Part shown: piece by piece, positions 39,178 to 60,500 of the stretch | Numbering within the stretch: position 1 is the stretch's first letter | Layout: each line of letters opens with the position of its first letter | NCBI RefSeq assembly: GCF_024734075.1 | Contig: NZ_CP102850.1 | Location: 930,001 to 994,000, forward strand | Direction: 5' to 3' | DNA from: Gordonia mangrovi | Lineage (GTDB): Bacteria > Actinomycetota > Actinomycetes > Mycobacteriales > Mycobacteriaceae | Length of the DNA: 64,000 nucleotides | Translations under genes and position numbers: made by a program | Notes under the pieces: generated by a model | Seen by the model: only the letters and a program-made list of their open reading frames with translations | Told to the model about the DNA's origin: nothing | The model's database searches: none

Positions 39178-39254
39178 CCTGAGGAACGAGGCGCCACCCC
39201 GACCCCTGAGGAACGAGGCGCTAGCCGAGTGTCACGAAGGGTCACGAAGGGCCC
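39178..39254. repeat. Repeat family B, truncated copy plus full copy
   Basis: A 17-base fragment (CCCTGAGGAACGAGGCG) at 39178 is followed by a complete unit beginning CCCCTGAGG at 39204. The unit's last ten bases, GTCACGAAGG, are doubled at 39231-39250. The unit ends pair (CCCT with AGGG), and the centre contains GGCGCTAGCC, also self-complementary. The first copy begins five bases after the helicase stop. Confidence 0.8.
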
Positions 39255-39282: not shown

Positions 39283-39324
39283 CCCTGAGGAACGAGGCGC
39301 TAGCCGAGTGTCACGAAGGGCCCC
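39283..39324. repeat. Repeat family B, full intergenic copy
   Basis: A complete 42-bp unit, CCCTGAGGAACGAGGC at the left and TGTCACGAAGGGCCCC at the right. Apart from short flanks it is the same sequence as copies within the NRPS gene at 53860, 54010 and 55357. Confidence 0.85.
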
Positions 39325-42219: not shown

Positions 42220-42288
42220 GGCGATCCTCTCCCTCTAACGGTGTCAGATCAATGCTATGTTCGTTAATCCGATCGCGCGACCAGCTCA

Positions 42289-45445: not shown

Positions 45446-46915
45446 CTACTGAGGCCCCGCGGCATCCGCCGGCGAGTCGGACGCGGACGCCGTATCGGAC
45501 TGCCCGCTCGACGGGATTGGGCGCCCAGTCGACGTCGGCGCGGCACTCGGCGTAGGCACGGCACTCGGCGTAGGCACGGCACTAGATGTAGACGCGCCGG
45601 AATCAGGCGCTGCCCCCGACGTGGGCGCGACCGTCGATGTCGGCGCGAGAGTGTCGCCCGGCACGACACTCGACGCGGCCACAACGGTCGACGTCGGCGC
45701 GGGAGTATCGCTTGGCGCGGACGTGGCACTCGAGCTCGGCGCGACGGTCGCGACACTCGACGTGGGCACCGAAATCGCCGACGCCTCCGTCGTCACCGCC
45801 TCATCCTTCTCGTCCTGCGACACCTGTTCCGCCAGTGCCGCTCCGGTACCGTCGGCAACCACTGTCGCCACCTCATCCCGCTGGAACTCCTCGAGCGCGT
45901 CCTGCACCATGTCCGCTTCTTTCTCGGCGTTGGCGTTCCAGTGCGTCCACGTGTGAGCCCCGTTGGTGTAGTTGAATCGCACCGGCAGGTCGAGCACCAC
46001 GGCCACACCGTTGAGCACCAGCGCCGACGCGAACGACAACGTTTCCAACCCGGCGCCGAAGATCACTTCGCCGATGCCGCCGAGGCCGATCAGCTCGTCG
46101 TATTCGTCTTGCCCGGTCAGCACACCGGTGCCCGCGGACACGATGATGATCTGCCCGTTGTCGCGGGCTTCGATGATGTGGCGGGTCACGTCGTTCTCGG
46201 CCCACGCGTTGCCGACGGCAAACGGGTTGCCCCACATGCCGTCGAAGCCGTTGGCGATGCCGTTGCGGTTGTTCAGGATGTACGGGATCAGCAGGTATCC
46301 GAAGACGCTGTCGGTCTGGTAGTAGCCGGAAATGGAATGCGCGACCTTGAACACCTCGGGGTATTTCAGCGCCAGGTTCACCGCCTGCCCGCCGCCCAGC
46401 GACAGCCCGACGATGGCGTTGTCGGTCGGCTCCACGGAGAAGTCGTCCTCCAGGTACGCCGGCAGTTCCTCGCCGATGAACGTCTCCCACTGCGGGTCGT
46501 AGGTGCCGCCGCTGCGGTTGGTCAGCGTGTTGCCGTCGGCGTCGACGGGCAGCGATTCCCAGTTCGCCGACCACGCATTCGACCCGTCGACCACCTGCAC
46601 CAGCGTGTACCGCTCGTCATACTGCGCGGCGATCCCGTCGGCCTCGGTGCCACCGCCGACCCCACCGAGAAAGTAGACCGCCTGTTCCTGTTGTCCGGCT
46701 TGTTGACTCGATGGCCGCACCTTGATCACCACGTCGGACTGCATTGCCTCCGACCACACCCGGCACGTCTGGATGTTGCGGCTCTGCTCAGCAGAATTGG
46801 CGTAGCTACAGCCGTCCCGCAACGACGTCGGGTCCACCGCGACCGCCACGCCGGCCCCGACCATCAGCAGCACCCCAGCAACGCCGACCCCGGCAACCCA
46901 TCCGCGTGACCTCAT
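45446..46915 (-). CDS. Antigen-85-like exported esterase with Ser/Thr/Pro tail
   Basis: A 489-residue exported alpha/beta hydrolase. The N-terminus MRSRGWVAGVGVAGVLLMVG is a signal or anchor segment. The hydrolase domain has VYFLGGVGGGTEADG, AIVGLSLGGGQAVNLAL (nucleophile Ser) and NGAHTWTHWN (catalytic His), matching the antigen 85/mycolyltransferase-like esterase family acting on the cell envelope. Residues about 355-489 are a Ser/Thr/Ala/Pro-rich tail with repeated TPSAVP units, probably a wall-spanning linker. ATG 46915 overlaps the upstream stop by one base. Mycolyl transfer is possible but not shown by sequence. Confidence 0.85.
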   Translation of the reverse strand: MRSRGWVAGVGVAGVLLMVGAGVAVAVDPTSLRDGCSYANSAEQSRNIQTCRVWSEAMQSDVVIKVRPSSQQAGQQEQAVYFLGGVGGGTEADGIAAQYDERYTLVQVVDGSNAWSANWESLPVDADGNTLTNRSGGTYDPQWETFIGEELPAYLEDDFSVEPTDNAIVGLSLGGGQAVNLALKYPEVFKVAHSISGYYQTDSVFGYLLIPYILNNRNGIANGFDGMWGNPFAVGNAWAENDVTRHIIEARDNGQIIIVSAGTGVLTGQDEYDELIGLGGIGEVIFGAGLETLSFASALVLNGVAVVLDLPVRFNYTNGAHTWTHWNANAEKEADMVQDALEEFQRDEVATVVADGTGAALAEQVSQDEKDEAVTTEASAISVPTSSVATVAPSSSATSAPSDTPAPTSTVVAASSVVPGDTLAPTSTVAPTSGAAPDSGASTSSAVPTPSAVPTPSAAPTSTGRPIPSSGQSDTASASDSPADAAGPQ

Positions 46916-47335
46916 CACTCACCACACACCGGGACGTCAACCTGCACCGTCGGATCATCCACCAACGGCTGAATCGGCACCACAGCCTCACCGCGCGCCA
47001 TCGTCGGCTTCTCCAGCGTCAACTCGATGGTCACCGTCTCACCCGGCGGAATCTGCACCGCCGTCGCCACATACGGCCGCCCGTTCAGCGGCTGCTCCAC
47101 CCGCATCGGCGACGACCCGTCCACGGTGATCTCCTTGACCACCGACCCCTTGGTCATCAGCATCTCCACGTTGGACAGGTTGGTGCCCTTCGGCAGGTTG
47201 CGCACCGTCGCGTCCGAGGCGATCACAGAGTCCAACAAAGACAGCTCATCAAGAGTATTGGTAAGTCTCACCGTCACCGTCCATTCTCGCCTATCCCCGC
47301 CGCATTCGCCCGGCGCCTAACTGATGTCGGGTACA
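46915..47335 (-). pseudogene. Duplicated C-terminal fragment of DUF4012 gene
   Basis: An open frame at 46915-47277 (120 residues) encodes the last part of the DUF4012 protein at 49257-51014: NLSNVEML, KGSVVKEITVDGSSPMRVE, GRPYVATAVQIPPGETVTIE and VQVDVPVCGE are shared almost word for word. DNA similarity runs on to about 47335, where the frame is broken (TATCCCCGC, ATTCGCCCG, CTGATGTCG match the intact gene). No promoter, signal peptide or N-terminal domain remains. It is best read as the remnant of a partial duplication of a DUF4012 gene, still coupled by overlap to the esterase gene. Confidence 0.82.
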
Positions 47336-49232: not shown

Positions 49233-49256
49233 CGGCCGCCGGCCACGGGGTGCTCA

Positions 49257-51014
49257 TCACTCACCACACACCGGAACATCAACCTGCACCGTCGGATCAT
49301 CCACCAGCGGCTGAATCGGCACCACGGCCTCACCGCGGGCCAGCGTCGGCTCCTCCAACGTCAGCTCGATGGTGACCGTCTCGCCCGGCGGAATCTGCAC
49401 CGCCGTCGCCACATACGGCCGCCCGTTGAGCGGCTGCTCCACCCGCATCGGCGACGACCCGTCCACGGTGATCTCCTTGACCACCGACCCCTTGGTCGTC
49501 AGCATCTCCACGTTCGAGAGGTTGGTGCCCTTGGGCATACTCCGCACCGTCCCGTTGGGCGCGATCACGTAGTCCGACAGCGTCAGATCGTCGAGGGTGT
49601 TCGTCAGCTTCACCACCACCTTCGATTCACGCGTATCCCCGCTGCACTCGCCCGCCGTGTAGCTGATGTCGCGCCGCAGGTAGTAGTCCAACTTGTTGCC
49701 ACCCGCGTTGCCGATCGCCACCTGCAGATACGGGGCGGTGGTGTCGGAGATCTGATGCCCCAGTTCGGTGGACTCCAGGATGCGTTGCTCGTCGGGGTGG
49801 GTGCTGTAGATCATGATCCGACGTTCCTGCACCCCATGCCCCAACGCCTCCAGCAACGCGCCGGTGTCCCCGCCCGACGACACCGCCTGATCCACCACCG
49901 CTTTCGCGATCGACTGCAGGTACAGCTTGCGTTCGGCGCTGTCGCCGCGGAACCGTTCGTACGACGTGGACAGGGTGATCGGCACGACGTTGTCGGCGGT
50001 GATCTTCTCCCCGTCCGGCAGCGTCACCGGGCCGGTCACCTTCAGTACATAGCTGAGCGCGATCGGGTCGAGCGCCATCGCCCCGTCGAGCTGCTGCCCG
50101 GACTGCCGCTTCCAGTTGGCGATCCAGATCTTCGCCGCGTCGGGGAAGTGGGCGCTGAGGTTGTTGTTCCGGAAATCGGTGTACGGGCGGTACGACGAAT
50201 AGATGGCGTCGTAGTCGGGCCCGAGGTCGATCTGCGGTCGCACCGGATCCCGGAAGGTGGAGTTGGCACCCAACGTCGGCACCGTCACCCGACCATTGCG
50301 GGCATTCAAAATAGCGAAACCGCCGACGAGACCGCCGGTTCCGCGTGCCTCCGACGGCGTCTGGAACGCCAGGAAGTAGTTGCGGGGGCCGTCGCCGCCG
50401 AGCATCGTCGGCACCAGCTGCGCGGCCACATGCGTGCCGGTCATGGTGGCCGCCGCCTCGTCGACCTGCTCCTGCAACTGCGTGTGCGCATCGGACACCA
50501 CACCCAGCCAGCTCGGGTCGATGGCCTCCACCTGCGCGGCGATCTCCGACGATGTAGCCGCCACCTGCGCCAGTTGCGGTTCCGCTTCGGCGAGCGGCGC
50601 GGTGTCGAGGGTGTTGCCGTCCCGGAGTTCGGCCGGGTTGAGCACCGACGCCAACTCCGCCGACGGCACCAGCACGTCGGTGGCCAACGACTCCACCGCG
50701 TCGCTCATCTGCTGCACCGATTGCAGCGGATCACCCAGCCACGGGATCGACGCGGCCGCCGACCATACGATGCCGTGCGACCAGTCCGATGCGCTGCGCG
50801 CCTTGTCGGCGGCGGCGTCGGCGGCCTGCCCGGCGGCCTCCTGGTCGCCGTCGAGCGCCAGCGACCGGGCCTTCGACGCCTCGGAACGTGCGTCGTCGAG
50901 GTCGCCGCGCACCTTCAGCGCCGAAAACCCCAGCCACAGCAGCACGGCGATCATCAGCACCGCCAGCACCAGGCAGATCTGCACGATGCGGTTGCCGAGA
51001 ACACGTCGGATCAT
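49257..51014 (-). CDS. DUF4012-family membrane-anchored protein
   Basis: A 585-residue protein with one N-terminal membrane helix (VQICLVLAVLMIAVLLWLGF) and a long extracytoplasmic part. A helical region follows (DDARSEASKARSLALDGDQEA), then the DUF4012 body: NYFLAFQTPSEARGTGGLVGGFAIL, DFRNNNLSAHFPDAAKIW and YYLRRDISYTAGECSGD. The C-terminal 120 residues are duplicated at 46915-47335. DUF4012 proteins often lie in polysaccharide or envelope loci, but their function is unknown. The ATG overlaps the stop of the phosphatase gene, so the gene belongs to the NRPS-phosphatase operon. Confidence 0.9.
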   Translation of the reverse strand: MIRRVLGNRIVQICLVLAVLMIAVLLWLGFSALKVRGDLDDARSEASKARSLALDGDQEAAGQAADAAADKARSASDWSHGIVWSAAASIPWLGDPLQSVQQMSDAVESLATDVLVPSAELASVLNPAELRDGNTLDTAPLAEAEPQLAQVAATSSEIAAQVEAIDPSWLGVVSDAHTQLQEQVDEAAATMTGTHVAAQLVPTMLGGDGPRNYFLAFQTPSEARGTGGLVGGFAILNARNGRVTVPTLGANSTFRDPVRPQIDLGPDYDAIYSSYRPYTDFRNNNLSAHFPDAAKIWIANWKRQSGQQLDGAMALDPIALSYVLKVTGPVTLPDGEKITADNVVPITLSTSYERFRGDSAERKLYLQSIAKAVVDQAVSSGGDTGALLEALGHGVQERRIMIYSTHPDEQRILESTELGHQISDTTAPYLQVAIGNAGGNKLDYYLRRDISYTAGECSGDTRESKVVVKLTNTLDDLTLSDYVIAPNGTVRSMPKGTNLSNVEMLTTKGSVVKEITVDGSSPMRVEQPLNGRPYVATAVQIPPGETVTIELTLEEPTLARGEAVVPIQPLVDDPTVQVDVPVCGE

Positions 51015-51547: not shown

Positions 51548-54500
51548 AGCTCCTCCTCGAGTAGTCGCGCGATTCGTCGCAGGGTCTCCGGTTCGCCGAG
51601 TGCGGCGTGGGTGGCGCCCGCAGCCACCACCTCGACCGGTCCCACGGCCCGCCCCCACGCGTCGGGGTCGGGGTTGTCGGTCGCCGCAACGTAGCAGGTG
51701 CGTCCGACGGCCACCGGCGTCAGCTGGTAGTCGCGGGCGGCCTGCGCCATCGTCGCCGACCGTTCGTCGAACCGCCGCACCGCCTCGGGGTCACGCTGTT
51801 GTGCCGCGGCCCGCAGCGGGTGGGTGGCGTGCAGTTCATCGTCGGGCACCCTACCGAGTTCGGCGGGGGTGCGCGGGTCGAGCAGCACCAGCTGCGTCAC
51901 CTCCTCGCCGGCCTCGACGAGTTGCCGGGCGATCTCGTGGGCGATCACCCCACCCAACGACCACCCGACCAACCGGTACGGCCCGTGCTCCTGCACCTCA
52001 CGCAAGGTGGCGACGTGCCGCGCCGCCAACGCCGCCACCGTGTCCGGCATGTCGCGGGTGGCGTCGATGAGTTCGGGCAGCTGCAACCCGAACACCGGCG
52101 ACGCCAACGCCTCGGCCAGCGGCCGGAACTGTTCGACGACCCCGGCGGCGGTGTGCACACACCACACCGGGGTGCCGTCGGTGCTCTGCGACAGCCGCAC
52201 CACCCGGTCGTCGGCCGATCCCGAGTCGAGCAGCTCGACGATGTCGGCGGGCGTGGGATGGGTGAACAGCTGCGCCGCCGAAACGTCGATGCCGTTGCCC
52301 GCCAGCGCGTCCCGCAGCGACAGTAGGGCCAGGGAGTTGCCGCCGAGGGCGAAGAAGTCGTCGTCCATGCCGGCCTCGACGCCGAGCACCTCGTCGAACG
52401 CGGCGATCACCGCCTGGTCGACCGGCGTGCCGGGTGCGCGCCGCGACCGCGACCATTGCGGCTCGGGCAGCCGGCGTTCGTCGAGTTTGCCCGCCCCGGA
52501 CAGCGGCAGCTGGTCGACGACGACGATGCGGGCGGGCACCATGTGTCGCGGCAGGGTGCGCCGGCAGGCTGCCCACAGCCGATCCGACGACGTGTCGGGG
52601 CTGACGACGTAGGAGACCAGTGCGGGTCCGACGGGTCCGTCGCGCAGGACAGTGGCCGCACGCTCGGCGCCGGCGGTGGTCAGGACGGCGTCGATCTCGG
52701 CGGGTTCGACACGCTGGCCGCGGATCTTGATCTGCCGGTCGGCGCGGCCGACGTAGACGAGTTGGTCGGCGGCCGGATCGAGGCGCATCAGGTCGCCGGT
52801 GCGGTAGAGCCGTTGCCCGCCAGGACCGGCGACGAACCGGGCGGCGGTGAGCGCCGCGTCGCCGAGATAGCCTCGGGCGACACCGGTTCCGGCGATATAC
52901 AGTTCGCCGACGACTCCGGGCGGGGTGGGTCGCAGCATCCGGTCGAGCAGGAACGCACCGATACCGGGGCGGGGCCGGCCGAGTCGGATGTGCTGCCCGG
53001 TTGTGTGGTGCGAGGTGGAGACGGTGACGGTGGTCTCGGTGGGCCCGTAGATGTTGATGACCTGCGCGGTGTGCGACCAGGTGTCGGCGAGGTCGGCGGT
53101 GAGCGCTTCGCCGCCGATGTAGACCGCGCGCAGGTCGGTCAGCGCGGCGGGGGTGAGCGTGCGCATCACCGACGGGGTGGCGGTGAACACGCTGACCCGT
53201 TGTGCGCGAAGAAAGTCGGTGAGGTCACGGCCGCCGGACACCTCGGCGGGCACCACGACCAGCGCCGCGCCGGTCGCGAGGGGCAGCAGCATGTCGTGGA
53301 AGGTGGCGTCGAAGCCGGGGCTGATGGCCATGCCGACCCGGTCGGTGGTGACGACGTCGCCGAGCGAGGCGACCCGATGCACCCCGCGGTGCGGCACCCC
53401 GACGACGTTCGGTGTGCCCGTGGTGCCCGATGTGGTGATGATGTAGGCGAGTTCGTCCGGCCGCATCGGTGTGAGTGGTTCGGGTGCAACGGTTCCCGTC
53501 GGCTGCGCCGGCACCGCGTCCGGTCCGATGACCCGCGCCCCGATCACCTGCACGACCCGCTCGAGCCGCGCCGCCGGATACGTGACGTCGACGGGCACGC
53601 ACGTCGCGCCGATCCGGGTGACCGCCCACAGCGCCACCACCGATTCGATGGAGCGGGGAATCTCGACCGCGATCACGTCCCCGCGTCCGAGCCCACGCTC
53701 CCGCAGTGCCCGCGCGGTGAACGACACCCAGTCATCGAACTCGCGATAGGTGAGTTGGCGGCGCCCGTCCTCCACGGCGGTGTTGTCCGGGTACCGCGCG
53801 ACCGCCCGAGCAAGCAGTTCCCCAAGCAGTACCTCCCCCCGCACAAGCTCACCCCCGCTCCCTGAGGAACGAGGCGCTAGCCGAGTGTCACGAAGGGCCC
53901 CGCCACCCAACCAACCCCGCGAGGAAGCGTCCCCCCGATCCCTGAGGAGCGCCGGAGCTTGCGGAGGCGCGTCACGAAGGGCCGCCTGCCGCACCAGCTC
54001 ACCCCCGCCCCCTGAGGAACGAGGCGCTAGCCGAGTGTCACGAAGGGCCCCACCCCCCAATAACGCGCACCGAGCCCACACCTCCCACTCCGCATCACTC
54101 AGGAGATCAACCCCTGCCACCGGCGTAGCAGCATCCCCCACAACGGCCGCAACCCCCGCCCCAACCCGCTCCGCAACCACCGCAATCGCCGCATCGTCAA
54201 ACAGATCCCGCGCATACTCCACCCGCAACCGCCACCGGCCGCCGTCCTCCACGGCAACCACATGCAGATCGAATTCGCTGCGTTCCTCCAGCATCTCGCC
54301 GATGTCACCCAGCGCACCGCCAACTCCCCCGGCCGAGAACGCCACCTGCACCAACGGATGCCGACCGGCCTCGCGCGGCGGGTCCACCAACGCGACCACG
54401 TCGTCGAAGGCGACGAGTCCGTGGTCGATGGCGGCGAGGTCGGCATCACGTACCTGCCCGATCAACTCCCCGATGGTCAGCCCGGCCGACATCTGCGTGC

Positions 54501-57500
54501 GCAGCACGACCGTCGAGATCAGCATGCCGACGGTGCCGGCGGTGTCGGCGTCGCGGCGCATCGACACCGGGGTGGCCAACGCGACGTCGTCGACGCCGCC
54601 CTGCACACCCAACGCGAGCGCCAACCCGGCGTGCAGCACATGGAATTCGCTGGCCTGTCCGCGCTCGGCGGCCGCGGCGACCGCCGCCGACACCTCGTCG
54701 CCCAGTTCGACGTCCACCGACCCGGTGCGCAGATCCCGCACTTCGGGTCGCTCGGCGACCAGGTCGAGCTGCCCGCTGTAGCCCTCCAGGGTCTGCGCCC
54801 AAAAGTCGAGCTGCTCGTCGCGCGTCTCGCGGTCCTCAACTGCCAGCCGCCCGGCAACAACATCAAATCCGGTCGCAGCAGCATTCAGCGGAACGCCGGT
54901 CAGCAGCTCGGTGAGTTCGGCGGCGACGATGTCGGCCGATTCCCCGTCGAGGACGATGTGGTGCGCGACCAGCACCACCGCCACCGGAACCGACTCGGAC
55001 TCGATCACCCACGCCCGCACCGGTGGCGCAGCCTCGAGATCGAACGGCGCGGTGAACTCGTCGACGCGAGCGGCGAGTTCAGCAGAGTCGATGTGCCGGA
55101 TCTCGGGCCGCCACCCCTCTACGGCCTGCTGCCGCGGCCCATCAGGCGTGGTGTGGAACCGCATCCGCAACGCAGGATGACGTGCCACCACGGTCTCGAT
55201 CGCCGCCGCGGCCGCATCACCCGTGGCCCCGTCGGGCACGGGCACGATCACCGGCACGCCGTAGATCGGCAGGTCGCCAAGGAGCTGCGCGTTCACCCAC
55301 ATCCGCCGCTGCGTCGGCGCCAGCTCAACCCTCATCTCACCAGCGTCCTCACCGCTCCCTGAGGAACGAGGCGCTAGCCGAGTGTCACGAAGGGCCCCGC
55401 CACCCCCGCCACCCCCGCGAACCGAGGCACTCTCGTAACCCCCGCTCCCTGAGGTGCCCGCAAGGAACGAACGAGAGTCTCCCCCGCTCCCTGAGGAGCG
55501 AGGCGCTAGCCGAGCGTCACGAAGGGCCCCAGAGCCCTCCAACAACGCAACCACCCCCGCCAACTCCCCCGCCGACGGATTCTCGAACAGCAGCCGCGTC
55601 GGCACCCGCACCCCGAGTTCCCGCCCGAGCGTCGATGTCACCCGCGTCGCCGACAGCGACGTCCCACCGAGAGCGAAGAAGTCATCCCCGGCACCGATCT
55701 CGTCGACTGGCACGTCGAGCACCTCGGCCATCACCGCCGCAACCTGCCGCACCAACTCGGCATCCGCCGCCACCACCGCACCCTCGACAACAGCCGAAGC
55801 CGGCACAGTCCCACCGACACCCCCGGACACCACCGGGAACGCCCCAGACACATCCCCCGCCGCAGCCCCGAACACCGTCAGGAAGTCATCGAGAAACGCC
55901 TGCGCCACCGCACCGGGCACAAACCCGGAGTGCACCACCGTCACCGCCAGCCCGGCGGCGTCCTCGGCGAGCACCACTTCGATGTCGAACTTCGCATCCA
56001 CGGTGGCATTCGCCTCGTCGAGCACCGCAGCCTGCCACTCACCGGCACCGAGCACTTCCCCCGACACCGTCGGCAACACATCCTCGTTGACCAGCAGCAC
56101 CGAGATCAGTGGGTCGAAGCCGGTGTGCGCGTGGGGTCGTACCGCGCGGGCGACGACGTCGTAGGGCACGTCGGCGTTGTCGGCCGCGTCCAACGCGACG
56201 TCCCGCGCCTGTTCGACTACGGCAGCGATCGGCTGACGAGCCGACAGCCGGGTACGCAGTGCGACGGTGTTGACGAACATGCCGACCACCGATTCCCAGT
56301 CGGCGGCGCTGCGGCCGTGCACGGGGACGCCGATCACGGTGTCCCACTGTCCGGTCCACTGCCCGAGCAGATCGGCCAGCGCCGCGTGTGCCAGGTGGAA
56401 CACCGTCGCCGACAACCCGTCCGCCGCCGCCCGCAACCCCGCAGCGACCGCCGACGGAAGCCGTCCAGAAATCCGCCCAGCCGCTCCCGCCACGTCACGG
56501 CGCCCCGGTAGTTGCACCGGTTCACCGGCACCGTCCAGCACCGACAGCCAATGGTCGAGTTCGCGGGTGTATCGGCTGGCCGGGTCGTCGGGGCCGCCGA
56601 GTCGCCGCATCTGCCACTGGGTGAAATCGGCGTAGCTCAGTCCCGCCGTCAGCGTCTCACCCTGGTAGGCGCGCAGCAGGTCGGCCAGCACGATGCGCAT
56701 CGACCAGCCGTCGATCGCGATGTGGTGCAACGCCGCCACGAAGTAGCGGGCGTCGTCGGTGTCGAAGACGCCGGCCCGGAAGCCGGGTTCGTGATCGAGG
56801 TCGAACGGGGTGGACAGGAACGTCTCGATGGCCGGCCAGAGTGCGGTGGCGTCCACCGTCTTGTGTCCCAGCACCGACTCGCGACGTTCGACGATCCGCT
56901 GCACCGGTCCGGCCGGTCCGTCCGGGTAGGCGGTGCGCAGCACCGCGTGCACGTCCACCACGGCGTCCACCGCGGCCCGGAGTCGGGTGAGGTCGATGTC
57001 GCCGTCGATGCGGATCACCACGGGCACGTGGTAGGCGGTCGACGTGGGGTCGTAGTGGTGGTGAATCCACATGCGCCGCTGCGGGTAGGCGAGCGGCAGG
57101 TGGTCGGGCAGGGGCAGCAGTTCGGGCCGCGGGTCGGCGCCGGTGCCGCGCAGGTCGTCGACGAGTGCGGCGACCTCGCGCACGGTGCGCGCCTCGAACA
57201 GCACCCGCACCGGCACGTCGACGCCGGTGGCCGCGGACAGGCGGGCGGTGACCCGTGTCGCCGACAGCGACGTGCCACCCGCCTCGAAGAAGTCGGTTTC
57301 AGCACCGAACTCGGTGAGCGGTACCTCCAGGACTTCGGCCCACACCGCCGCGACGAGATGCTGGGTCCCCTCGGCCAACGCCACCCGGGCCGTCGCCGAT
57401 GCCCCCAATTCTGGGGACGGCAACGCGGCGACGTCGGCCTTCCCGGTGCGTCCGATCGGCAGCGTCTCGACCGGGATGATGGCGGCGGGAATGATGGCGC

Positions 57501-60500
57501 GCGGCAGCACGTGTGTCAGCTCGCCGCGCAACGCGTCGGCGTCGAGTTCATGTTCGGGTTCGCCGACCACCCACGACACCAGCACCTTCTCGCCGCTGCT
57601 GCTGGCGCGTACGGCGGTGACGGCGGTGGCCACCTCCGGCAGCCGCGACAGCGCCGCGTCGATCTCGGACGGTTCGAGGCGGATGCCGCGGATCTTCACC
57701 TGGTCGTCGGTGCGGCCGTGAATCACCAGCGTGCCGTCGGCGCGGCGGTGCACGAGGTCACCGGTGCGGTACATGCGGTCGCCGCTGCCGGCCGGGTCGG
57801 CGACGAACGCTGCTGCGGTACGCCCGAATTCGTGCAGGTAGCCGCGAGCCAGCGCAGGCCCGGCGACGTAGAGTTCGCCGACGGTGTAGTCGGGCACCGG
57901 CCGCAGCCGGGTGTCGAGGACGTGCGCGGTGACGCCGGCGAGAGGGCTGCCGATGCTGACCGTGTCGGGGGTGTCGGTGTAGCGGGAGCTGGTGACGGCG
58001 ACGGTGGTTTCGGTGGGCCCGTATTCGTTGCTGAGGGTGGTGGTGGCGGTCCAGTCGCGGATCAGGCCGGCGCCGAGCGCTTCACCGCCGACCGCGACGT
58101 GCCGCACCCCGGGCAGTTCGGCCGGGTGCAGGGTCGGCAGCACCGACGGGGTGGTGAGCAGCACGGTGACGTCGTGGTCCACGACGGTGTCGCGGAGGTC
58201 GTCAGCGGCGATCACGTCGGGTGGGCAGATCACGATGGGTGCGCCGACGATGCGTGGCGGCACCAGCCCCATCAGGTGGGCGTCGAATCCGACTGCGTAG
58301 GTGTGCAACACACGGTCATCGGCGGTCAGTAGCAGGCGATTGACGGTGTCGCGGACCCACCCGGCCAGGCCACGATGGGTGACGATGACGCCCTTGGGTA
58401 CGCCGGTGGTGCCGGAGGTGAAGGTGATGTAGGCGGCGTCGTCGGCGTGCAGCGGCCGCACCCGCTCGGCCGGGTCGAAGGGCCGGTCGTCAGGTGCGAT
58501 CTGATCGACCGCGATCCCCGCCACCCCGGAGTCACCCAACGTCAGCACGGCGGCCGGCCTCGCGCGTTCCAGAATCGTGCGCCGTCGTTCCGCCGGATCG
58601 GCCGGGTCGATGTTGACGAACGCCGCCCCCGCCCGTGCCGTGCCCAGGGTGGCGACCACACCCCACACCGACCGCGGAAGCAGCTGCACCACCACATCTC
58701 CCGGCCCCACACCGGCCGCGATCAGCTCCCGCGCGACCGTCGTCGCCCGACGATCGAGTTCCGCGTTGCTCATCGTGACGGCACCATCGACCACTGCCAC
58801 CGCATCCGGCCGCTCCGCGAGCCCACCAGTGAGCAGCTCCGCCAAGGTCTCCACCGGCGGCGCCGGCGACGCCACTGCCGTCTCCCCCGCGAGCAACGCC
58901 GCAGTGGGTTGATCAACATCGGCAACAGCCCGCGACAGCACGTCGACGACGGCTCCGCACAGCGCTTCCAACCGCTGAGCCGACGCCACCCGGTCGGTGC
59001 AGGTCATGCTGAGATGCGCCCGCCCGTCAATCCGATACATCGACACATCAATCCCAAACAGCGGCACCCCTTGATCCCTGAGGAACGACCGAGCCTGCGA
59101 GGGAGTGCCACGAAGGGTCGCCCCAGCGTCGGCCGAGGCGCCCAAACCGCTGGTTGAGTAGTCCGAGGCGCTAGCCGAGGACGTATCGAAACCAGCCCCA
59201 CCCACCTGGTCTCGATACGCGTCTCCTTCGTCGCCGCTACTCGACCAGCGGTGGGCCACCTCCTCCGGCACCACCCCAAACGACACCTCAAACAACGCCG
59301 TCCCCGCCCCAGCCCGCCCCGGATCAGCGATCTCCGCGATCTCCGTCAGCGGCAGATCCGCATGCGCAAACGCCCCGAGATCCACCTCGGTCACCGACGC
59401 CAGCAACTCCCCGAACGGCACCTCCAGATCAACCGCCGTATGCAACGGCACCGCCCGCGCAAACAACCCGGGCACCTGCGCCAGCCGCGCATCCAACCGC
59501 CCCGACACCGCGGTCCCGATCGTCACCGTCGACGTATCTGCCTGCCGTGCAAGCACTGCCGCCAACGCGGTATGCGCAACCACAAAAGCGGTCGTCCGCC
59601 GCGACACGGCCAACGCATCCAACGCCGCCGTCACCGACTCCCCCAGCACGCCCTCGGCCCGCACCACCTGCGCCGACCGCTCCGACGCCGCCCGCAGATT
59701 CACCTCGGGCAACCGCAGCGCACTCACCGGCTCCGCAAACGCCTGCGTCCAGTGCGCCACCAACTCGTCGTGCCGCGCCGCCACCATCTGCGCGCGCCAC
59801 AGCGAGTACTGCCGGTAGTCGACCCGATCAGACCCCTCGACAGCCTGATCGGTCACCTCCGCCGCCAACTCGGCGGCGAGGATCGGGAACGACTCCCCAT
59901 CCACCGCAATGTGATGCCCGACGACGAGAAGCCATGTCTGCCCGTCATGTTCGACGACCCGCAGCCGCCACGGCAACGACTCCGCCAGATCGATCGGCGT
60001 CACCAAACCTGTCAGCGCCGCATCCACCCCCGCCGACACATCGCGATCCGCATCAAGCTGCACCGCCACAAACCCGGCGACCTCATCGTCGGTCCACCGC
60101 CGCTGATACGGGTCGCCGTCCACCACCGGGAAGCTGGTGCGCAACGCATCATGCCGCGCAGCGATCGCTGCGACGGCCCGCCGCACCGCATCCACCGACG
60201 CCGGCACCGGTAGCGCGGCGTGCATGAGGTAGCCGGTGAAGTCGGGTTCGGTGCGCCACCGCAACCACACGTCCATCTGCTCGGGCGTCAGCGGCAAACG
60301 GTCCGGCTCGGCACGGCGCTCATCCAGCGACGGCAGACGCTCACCCGGGGCCTCCCCTTCCAACAATCGGGCGAGTCCTTCGACCGTCGGATGATCGAAA
60401 ATAGCGGGAACACCCACCGGATGACCGTCGGCCGCGAGAGCCGCTGCGAACCGAGCCGCCGACAGCGACGTACCGCCCGCAGCGAAGAAGTTGGTGCTAG

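Follow-up and report, generated by a model that had tools for sequence, protein, structure and literature searches.

Rickettsia palindromic elements (RPE; Ogata et al. 2000, described in PMC2229807 and PMC10969869) are palindromes that lie between genes and also in frame inside protein genes. They measure about 105–150 nt, and many unrelated genes have been hit (PMC2229807). REPs of the GTAG and CGTC super-families (Di Nocera et al. 2013, PMC3733652) are palindromes of 20–40 nt that are mostly intergenic, lie near the 3′ ends of genes and sometimes are dimeric. Some GTAG/CGTC REPs also are located in frame inside ORFs, and the CGTC group is without an associated transposase (PMC3733652); the text of that study makes no mention of Actinobacteria or Gordonia. 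The repeat of Gordonia mangrovi that is described here, family 1, resembles RPE in being a palindrome that occurs both in intergenic DNA and in frame in a protein gene, where the insert is predicted to be translated as RPE inserts are.

A short palindrome in intergenic DNA and in an NRPS gene of G. mangrovi

The window is the whole 64-kb stretch of G. mangrovi DNA that was analysed, and coordinates refer to it. The family-1 unit is an imperfect palindrome of 38–42 nt with the arrangement CCCTGAGGA-stem-GTCACGAAGGG. An intergenic gap at 39.2 kb contains two copies of the 38-nt sequence, CCCTGAGGAACGAGGCGCTAGCCGAGTGTCACGAAGGG, and an NRPS gene contains four, with 0–2 mismatches; two 42-nt variants in this gene, whose feet are the same as those of the 38-mer, raise its count to six. 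When the window was scanned exactly, zero family-1 matches were expected in shuffles. The gap contains the following copies.

39204–39241, + strand: intergenic family-1 copy, same sequence as the three perfect NRPS copies
39283–39320, + strand: second intergenic family-1 copy, the 38 nt identical, with a CCCC right flank common to NRPS copies

The 5.39-Mb genome holds 13 distinct family-1 copies, comprising the six in the NRPS gene and seven intergenic copies that mostly are near gene ends. The six copies of the 13 that lie in the 13.9-kb NRPS gene compare with 0.03 copies expected, although the events are not independent. Identical 38-mers are confined to the window. An Rfam search of 38.9–64 kb returned no family match, and a 44-nt family-1 consensus matched nothing in either a plasmid or a phage collection.

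The NRPS gene is intact, as are the catalytic motifs of its product. With a dN/dS of 0.14–0.21 relative to the Gordonia tangerina ortholog the gene is, on this measure, under purifying selection. Pfam boundaries place a C-A linker at 53812–54087 and a T-C linker at 55330–55551. In addition to family 1, the gene harbors elements of a second palindrome family (family 2, considered below).

65415 (ATG, beyond the window) to 51544, − strand: NRPS gene, 4,623 aa, with C-A-T modules and a terminal thioesterase domain
53860–53897, + strand: family-1 copy, 38 nt, C-A linker, 13-aa reading (exact scan, translation, Pfam)
53940–53981, + strand: family-1 copy, 42-nt variant, C-A linker, 15-aa reading (scan, translation, Pfam)
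54010–54047, + strand: family-1 copy, 38 nt, C-A linker, with flanks common to the 53860 copy (local duplication)
55357–55394, + strand: family-1 copy, 38 nt, T-C linker, no counterpart at that place in G. tangerina
about 55447–55479, + strand: truncated and decayed family-1 copy, T-C linker, 11-aa peptide; G. tangerina has a full element at the same site
55489–55526, + strand: family-1 copy, 38 nt, T-C linker, 13-aa reading, without counterpart in G. tangerina
59076–59117, + strand: family-1 copy, 42-nt variant, C-domain loop, 15-aa reading (scan, translation, Pfam)
59152–59193, + strand: slightly decayed family-2 element (GGTTGAGTAG...TATCGAAACC), same C-domain loop as the 59076 copy, 15-aa reading, common to G. 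tangerina
59208–59246, − strand: family-2 element (GGTCGAGTAG...TATCGAGACC), same C-domain loop as the 59076 copy, 14-aa reading, common to G. tangerina

The initial annotation had described the unit, there termed family B, as intergenic at 39.2 kb and present at least six times in the NRPS gene, which agrees with the two gap copies and six NRPS copies recovered by scanning. Its statement that the NRPS copies always share orientation and reading frame also was borne out: all six are on the + strand whereas the gene is on the − strand, and translation gives a single frame, in which three copies have an identical 13-aa reading. By the Pfam boundaries the C-A linker has three copies, the T-C linker two and a C-domain loop the remaining one, as expected from the description of all but one as residing in interdomain linkers and the last in a condensation-domain loop. 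The inventory of six was correct, but the truncated family-1 copy and both family-2 copies had been overlooked, and the tally of elements from the two families is nine. The end of the interval that had been given, 59249, nearly coincides with that of the last family-2 element (59246).

A uniform frame is not as remarkable here as it appears since the 38-mer has few stop-free frames and there are local duplications with shared flanks. Three of its six frames are stop-free, only one of which is in the orientation of the NRPS copies; the 42-nt variants have four stop-free frames in one case and five in the other. The copies at 53860 and 54010 look like such a local duplication, judging from their flanks.

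A second palindrome family and further repeats

Family 2, GGTCGAGTAG-N-TATCGAGACC, is represented by 42 copies in the G. mangrovi genome, and 27 of the 30 examined there are intergenic. It is present in 16 of 59 Gordonia species. The two families have the same hairpin cores (GAGGCGCTAGCCGAG, GAGCTTGCGAG and GAGGAACGAG), the intergenic habit and the occurrence in NRPS linkers in common, but their feet differ. In the G. tangerina NRPS (L073), residues about 1463–1570 comprise about ten tandem CTACTCGACC feet, apparently a coding minisatellite that grew from a family-2 element. A dispersed unit of roughly 250–290 bp that is bounded by family-2 palindromes occupies several intergenic sites of the genome (L144, L153, L164, L167) and may represent a composite mobile element of larger size.

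A third intergenic palindrome, GTGAGGTGAACGT-N-ACGTTCACCTCAC, has six related copies in the window at 42285, 43523, 44512, 45399, 47385 and 49188. Nine strict copies exist genome-wide, six of them within a 13-kb stretch of the window, and the sequence may represent either a site for a regulator or a further repeat. The window also contains a direct duplication of 300 nt (46911–47210 and 49253–49552; 93% identity).

Distribution and hairpin structure of family 1

Family 1 was detected in 23 of 59 Gordonia species, with copy numbers of one to about 150, copies on either strand and element sizes of 27–51 nt; copies in these 59 genomes sometimes form close inverted pairs. Across 271 genomes from 30 other genera of the same bacterial family there were only isolated, chance-level matches without element structure, and a class-wide sample yielded a few copies in one other genus. 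Outside G. mangrovi the census of coding and intergenic copies is a sample with home-made whole-ORF scoring, which was used in place of a strict flank-based coding test that called NRPS linkers non-coding. In G015 (L128, L138), ORFs of about 570–590 aa have family-1 elements (LRDAPSASSGRSSG), one or two per ORF, in frame close to the C-terminal end.

Covariation was assessed with 22 distinct 42-nt copies. Paired cells amounted to 96.7%, a percentage that is biased upward because the aligned copies were picked by eye and the structure was drawn from the same copies. Both-side changes are the more telling measure, and numbered 23 cells in the hairpin compared to 7.5 in shuffles and 0–5 in slid controls. 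This covariation shows that the family-1 unit forms a hairpin.

REP-like size, the hairpin, intergenic placement and close inverted pairs are the features of a repeat that might be mobilised by a Y1 tyrosine transposase, as REPs are in enterobacteria and Pseudomonas. However, the 59 Gordonia genomes, among them the ones that carry about 150 copies, yielded no Y1_Tnp/RAYT domain in a search that was positive for five of 14 control genomes, and the elements do not possess a GTAG foot. RAYT-driven spread is exceedingly improbable.

Orthologous NRPSs with and without the elements

Orthologs within Gordonia were obtained from a genus-wide search and a named collection. Twelve of these NRPSs (G034, G003, G025, G056, G015, G038, G055, G005, G011, G022, G021 and G046) are free of complete family-1 and family-2 elements and contain only two isolated foot-like matches of 8–9 bases; those that were aligned have short linkers at both joints. 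Family-1 elements are found in the ABSL11-1, OPL2, G. tangerina and G033 orthologs, at these joints or elsewhere, and family-2 sequence in those of G. tangerina, G018, OPL2 and ABSL11-1. The closest clade (G. tangerina, ABSL11-1, OPL2 and one further species) has different copies at the same joints, some in another frame or in the opposite orientation, with readings such as PSRRSHARSSG and PEERAGERHEG. The element-free orthologs and these other frames and orientation show that the NRPS repeats are inserted DNA and not a protein motif.

A conserved 13-aa linker motif, with the DNA similarity as a secondary matter, might explain the frame that is constant within this one gene. Nevertheless, identical DNA occurs at intergenic sites, the peptide is missing from orthologs, and in relatives the palindrome is read in different frames and orientation. 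The genomic copies, the ortholog comparison and the frames in relatives refute an old protein motif, the probability of which is next to nil. By the same evidence, the view in the initial annotation that a dispersed DNA repeat is tolerated at linkers has been strengthened: the seven copies outside the NRPS gene are all intergenic, insertion-free orthologs exist, and relatives use different frames and orientation. The checks that it had proposed likewise turned out positively, yielding the seven further genomic copies in a family that is genus-wide and the twelve Gordonia orthologs without a complete element.

The NRPS of the nearest relative, G. tangerina, is 79% identical in amino acids overall, and the later modules mostly are 87–98% identical away from inserts. 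This identity and the dN/dS values indicate an NRPS under constraint whose linkers nonetheless change. The 55357 and 55489 copies differ between these close species, as G. tangerina lacks both and instead has family-2 elements in the C-A linker. Copy-rich genomes gave a less informative comparison: G. lacunae (149 genomic copies) and G015 (106) have none in this NRPS, with 0.25–0.39 expected by chance, and the absence is weak evidence that points in neither direction.

From about 60300 to 65415, the first NRPS module is 30–70% identical to that of G. tangerina over most of its length, compared to mostly 87–98% for the rest. The identities suggest that this module likely was replaced, with an edge near P0001 residue 1180 where there is no repeat.

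Identical repeats at module borders could act as handles for recombination that promote domain or module swaps between genes or strains. The C domain at 54088–55329 is flanked on both sides by identical 38-mers, and similarity changes sharply in the first module of the same NRPS. Yet that apparent breakpoint is devoid of a repeat, and identity to G. tangerina is about 87–95% on either side of the repeat-bearing linkers with no exchange visible. Module exchange at the repeats was rejected in view of the lack of an identity step at these linkers relative to G. tangerina, and a role as recombination handles is very unlikely.

The AlphaFold model, which is of low confidence (mean pLDDT 58.5), assigns pLDDT values of about 26–42 to both insert-bearing linkers, which are predicted to be disordered. 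The repeats may have been retained adaptively because longer, flexible linkers aid domain movement or product output; a linker-lengthening device was the alternative offered in the initial annotation. The predicted disorder of the inserted sequence is in line with this proposal, as are the repeated use of the same joints for insertion, in several species, by two palindrome families with different feet and the acceptance of flexible glycine-serine inserts by engineered NRPSs (PMC10443035). However, the twelve orthologs manage without either family, with short linkers where aligned; linker lengths and sequences vary even between close species and the peptide is not conserved; and one of the insertion sites is in a loop of a C domain rather than at a joint. 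Adaptive lengthening is considered unlikely.

Proposed origin and spread

The NRPS copies probably are REP-like selfish or neutral repeats that were amplified locally and are tolerated in flexible NRPS linkers. On the evidence of the orthologs, a REP-like Gordonia hairpin and the core-sharing family 2 became inserted, in one lineage, into a single NRPS, at interdomain linkers and in one C-domain loop. Local multiplication then may have ensued, probably by slippage or recombination at the hairpins that copies the element with some flanking bases or leaves truncated tandem pieces. Shared flanks, the confinement of identical 38-mers to the window and truncated tandem pieces in relatives all point to this step. 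The distribution of the copies suggests that selection would purge insertions that disrupt the reading frame, introduce a stop codon or fall within folded domains, with the survivors being stop-free frames in flexible joints only. Each copy is predicted to add 13–15 aa of probably disordered linker, and the inserted peptides most likely are neutral or nearly so for the enzyme. The use of one shared frame from at least three that are stop-free counts against this reading as it is unusual under independent random insertion, and local duplication explains part of the pattern, but not clearly all.

More tentatively, the families may belong to a modular set of Gordonia hairpins with different feet and exchangeable cores that spreads with no Y1 transposase dedicated to it, for instance through template switching at hairpins, and for which NRPS linkers are a recurrent nursery that diversifies linker length between species; this broader proposal is regarded as doubtful.

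Comparison with described palindromic repeats

The open papers that were searched gave no description of these Gordonia palindrome families or of palindromes in NRPS linkers. The host lineage, the target and the repeat families appear to be new, whereas in-frame genic palindromes already are known. With these data, the known range of palindromic repeats inserted in frame grows to include Gordonia and a modular megasynthetase for which filled and empty orthologs are at hand. They make it possible to test by what means short hairpins spread in genomes where no Y1 transposase is detected, and whether linker insertions are tolerated by natural NRPSs or benefit them. The latter question is relevant to the choice of sites for cutting and lengthening engineered NRPSs.

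The likeness to the protein-coding palindromic elements of Rickettsia that had been remarked on at the outset holds for behaviour and not for sequence, with family 1 at 38–44 nt compared to about 105–150 nt for RPE. As with RPE, elements lie in frame inside ORFs and insertion-free homologs exist. In contrast to RPE, family 1 is essentially Gordonia-specific in the genomes sampled, and its coding copies in G. mangrovi are restricted to one NRPS. The span of 27–51 nt, set against the length of RPE, speaks against common descent. In the broad sense family 1 is a REP: the palindrome is short (20–45 nt), its many dispersed copies are mainly intergenic, and the hairpin is kept by compensatory changes. 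It shares with the GTAG/CGTC REPs the short length, a mostly intergenic location near gene ends, an occasional dimeric arrangement and partial placement in frame inside ORFs, and with the CGTC group the lack of a detected Y1 transposase. Nevertheless, the feet CCCTGAGGA/GTCACGAAGGG pair at their ends (CCCT/AGGG), and follow neither the GTAG tag nor the CGTC stem rules. All aligned copies have CCCTGAGGA and CGAAGGG as their feet, which separates the family from RAYT-associated GTAG REPs. The CGTC REPs are characterized by a CGTC tag, an 8–9 bp stem, A/T first positions and a CCA tail; in family 1 the GTC is internal, and the stem and tail do not fit. By the features tested, family 1 falls outside the RPE, GTAG and CGTC groups, though it works like them.
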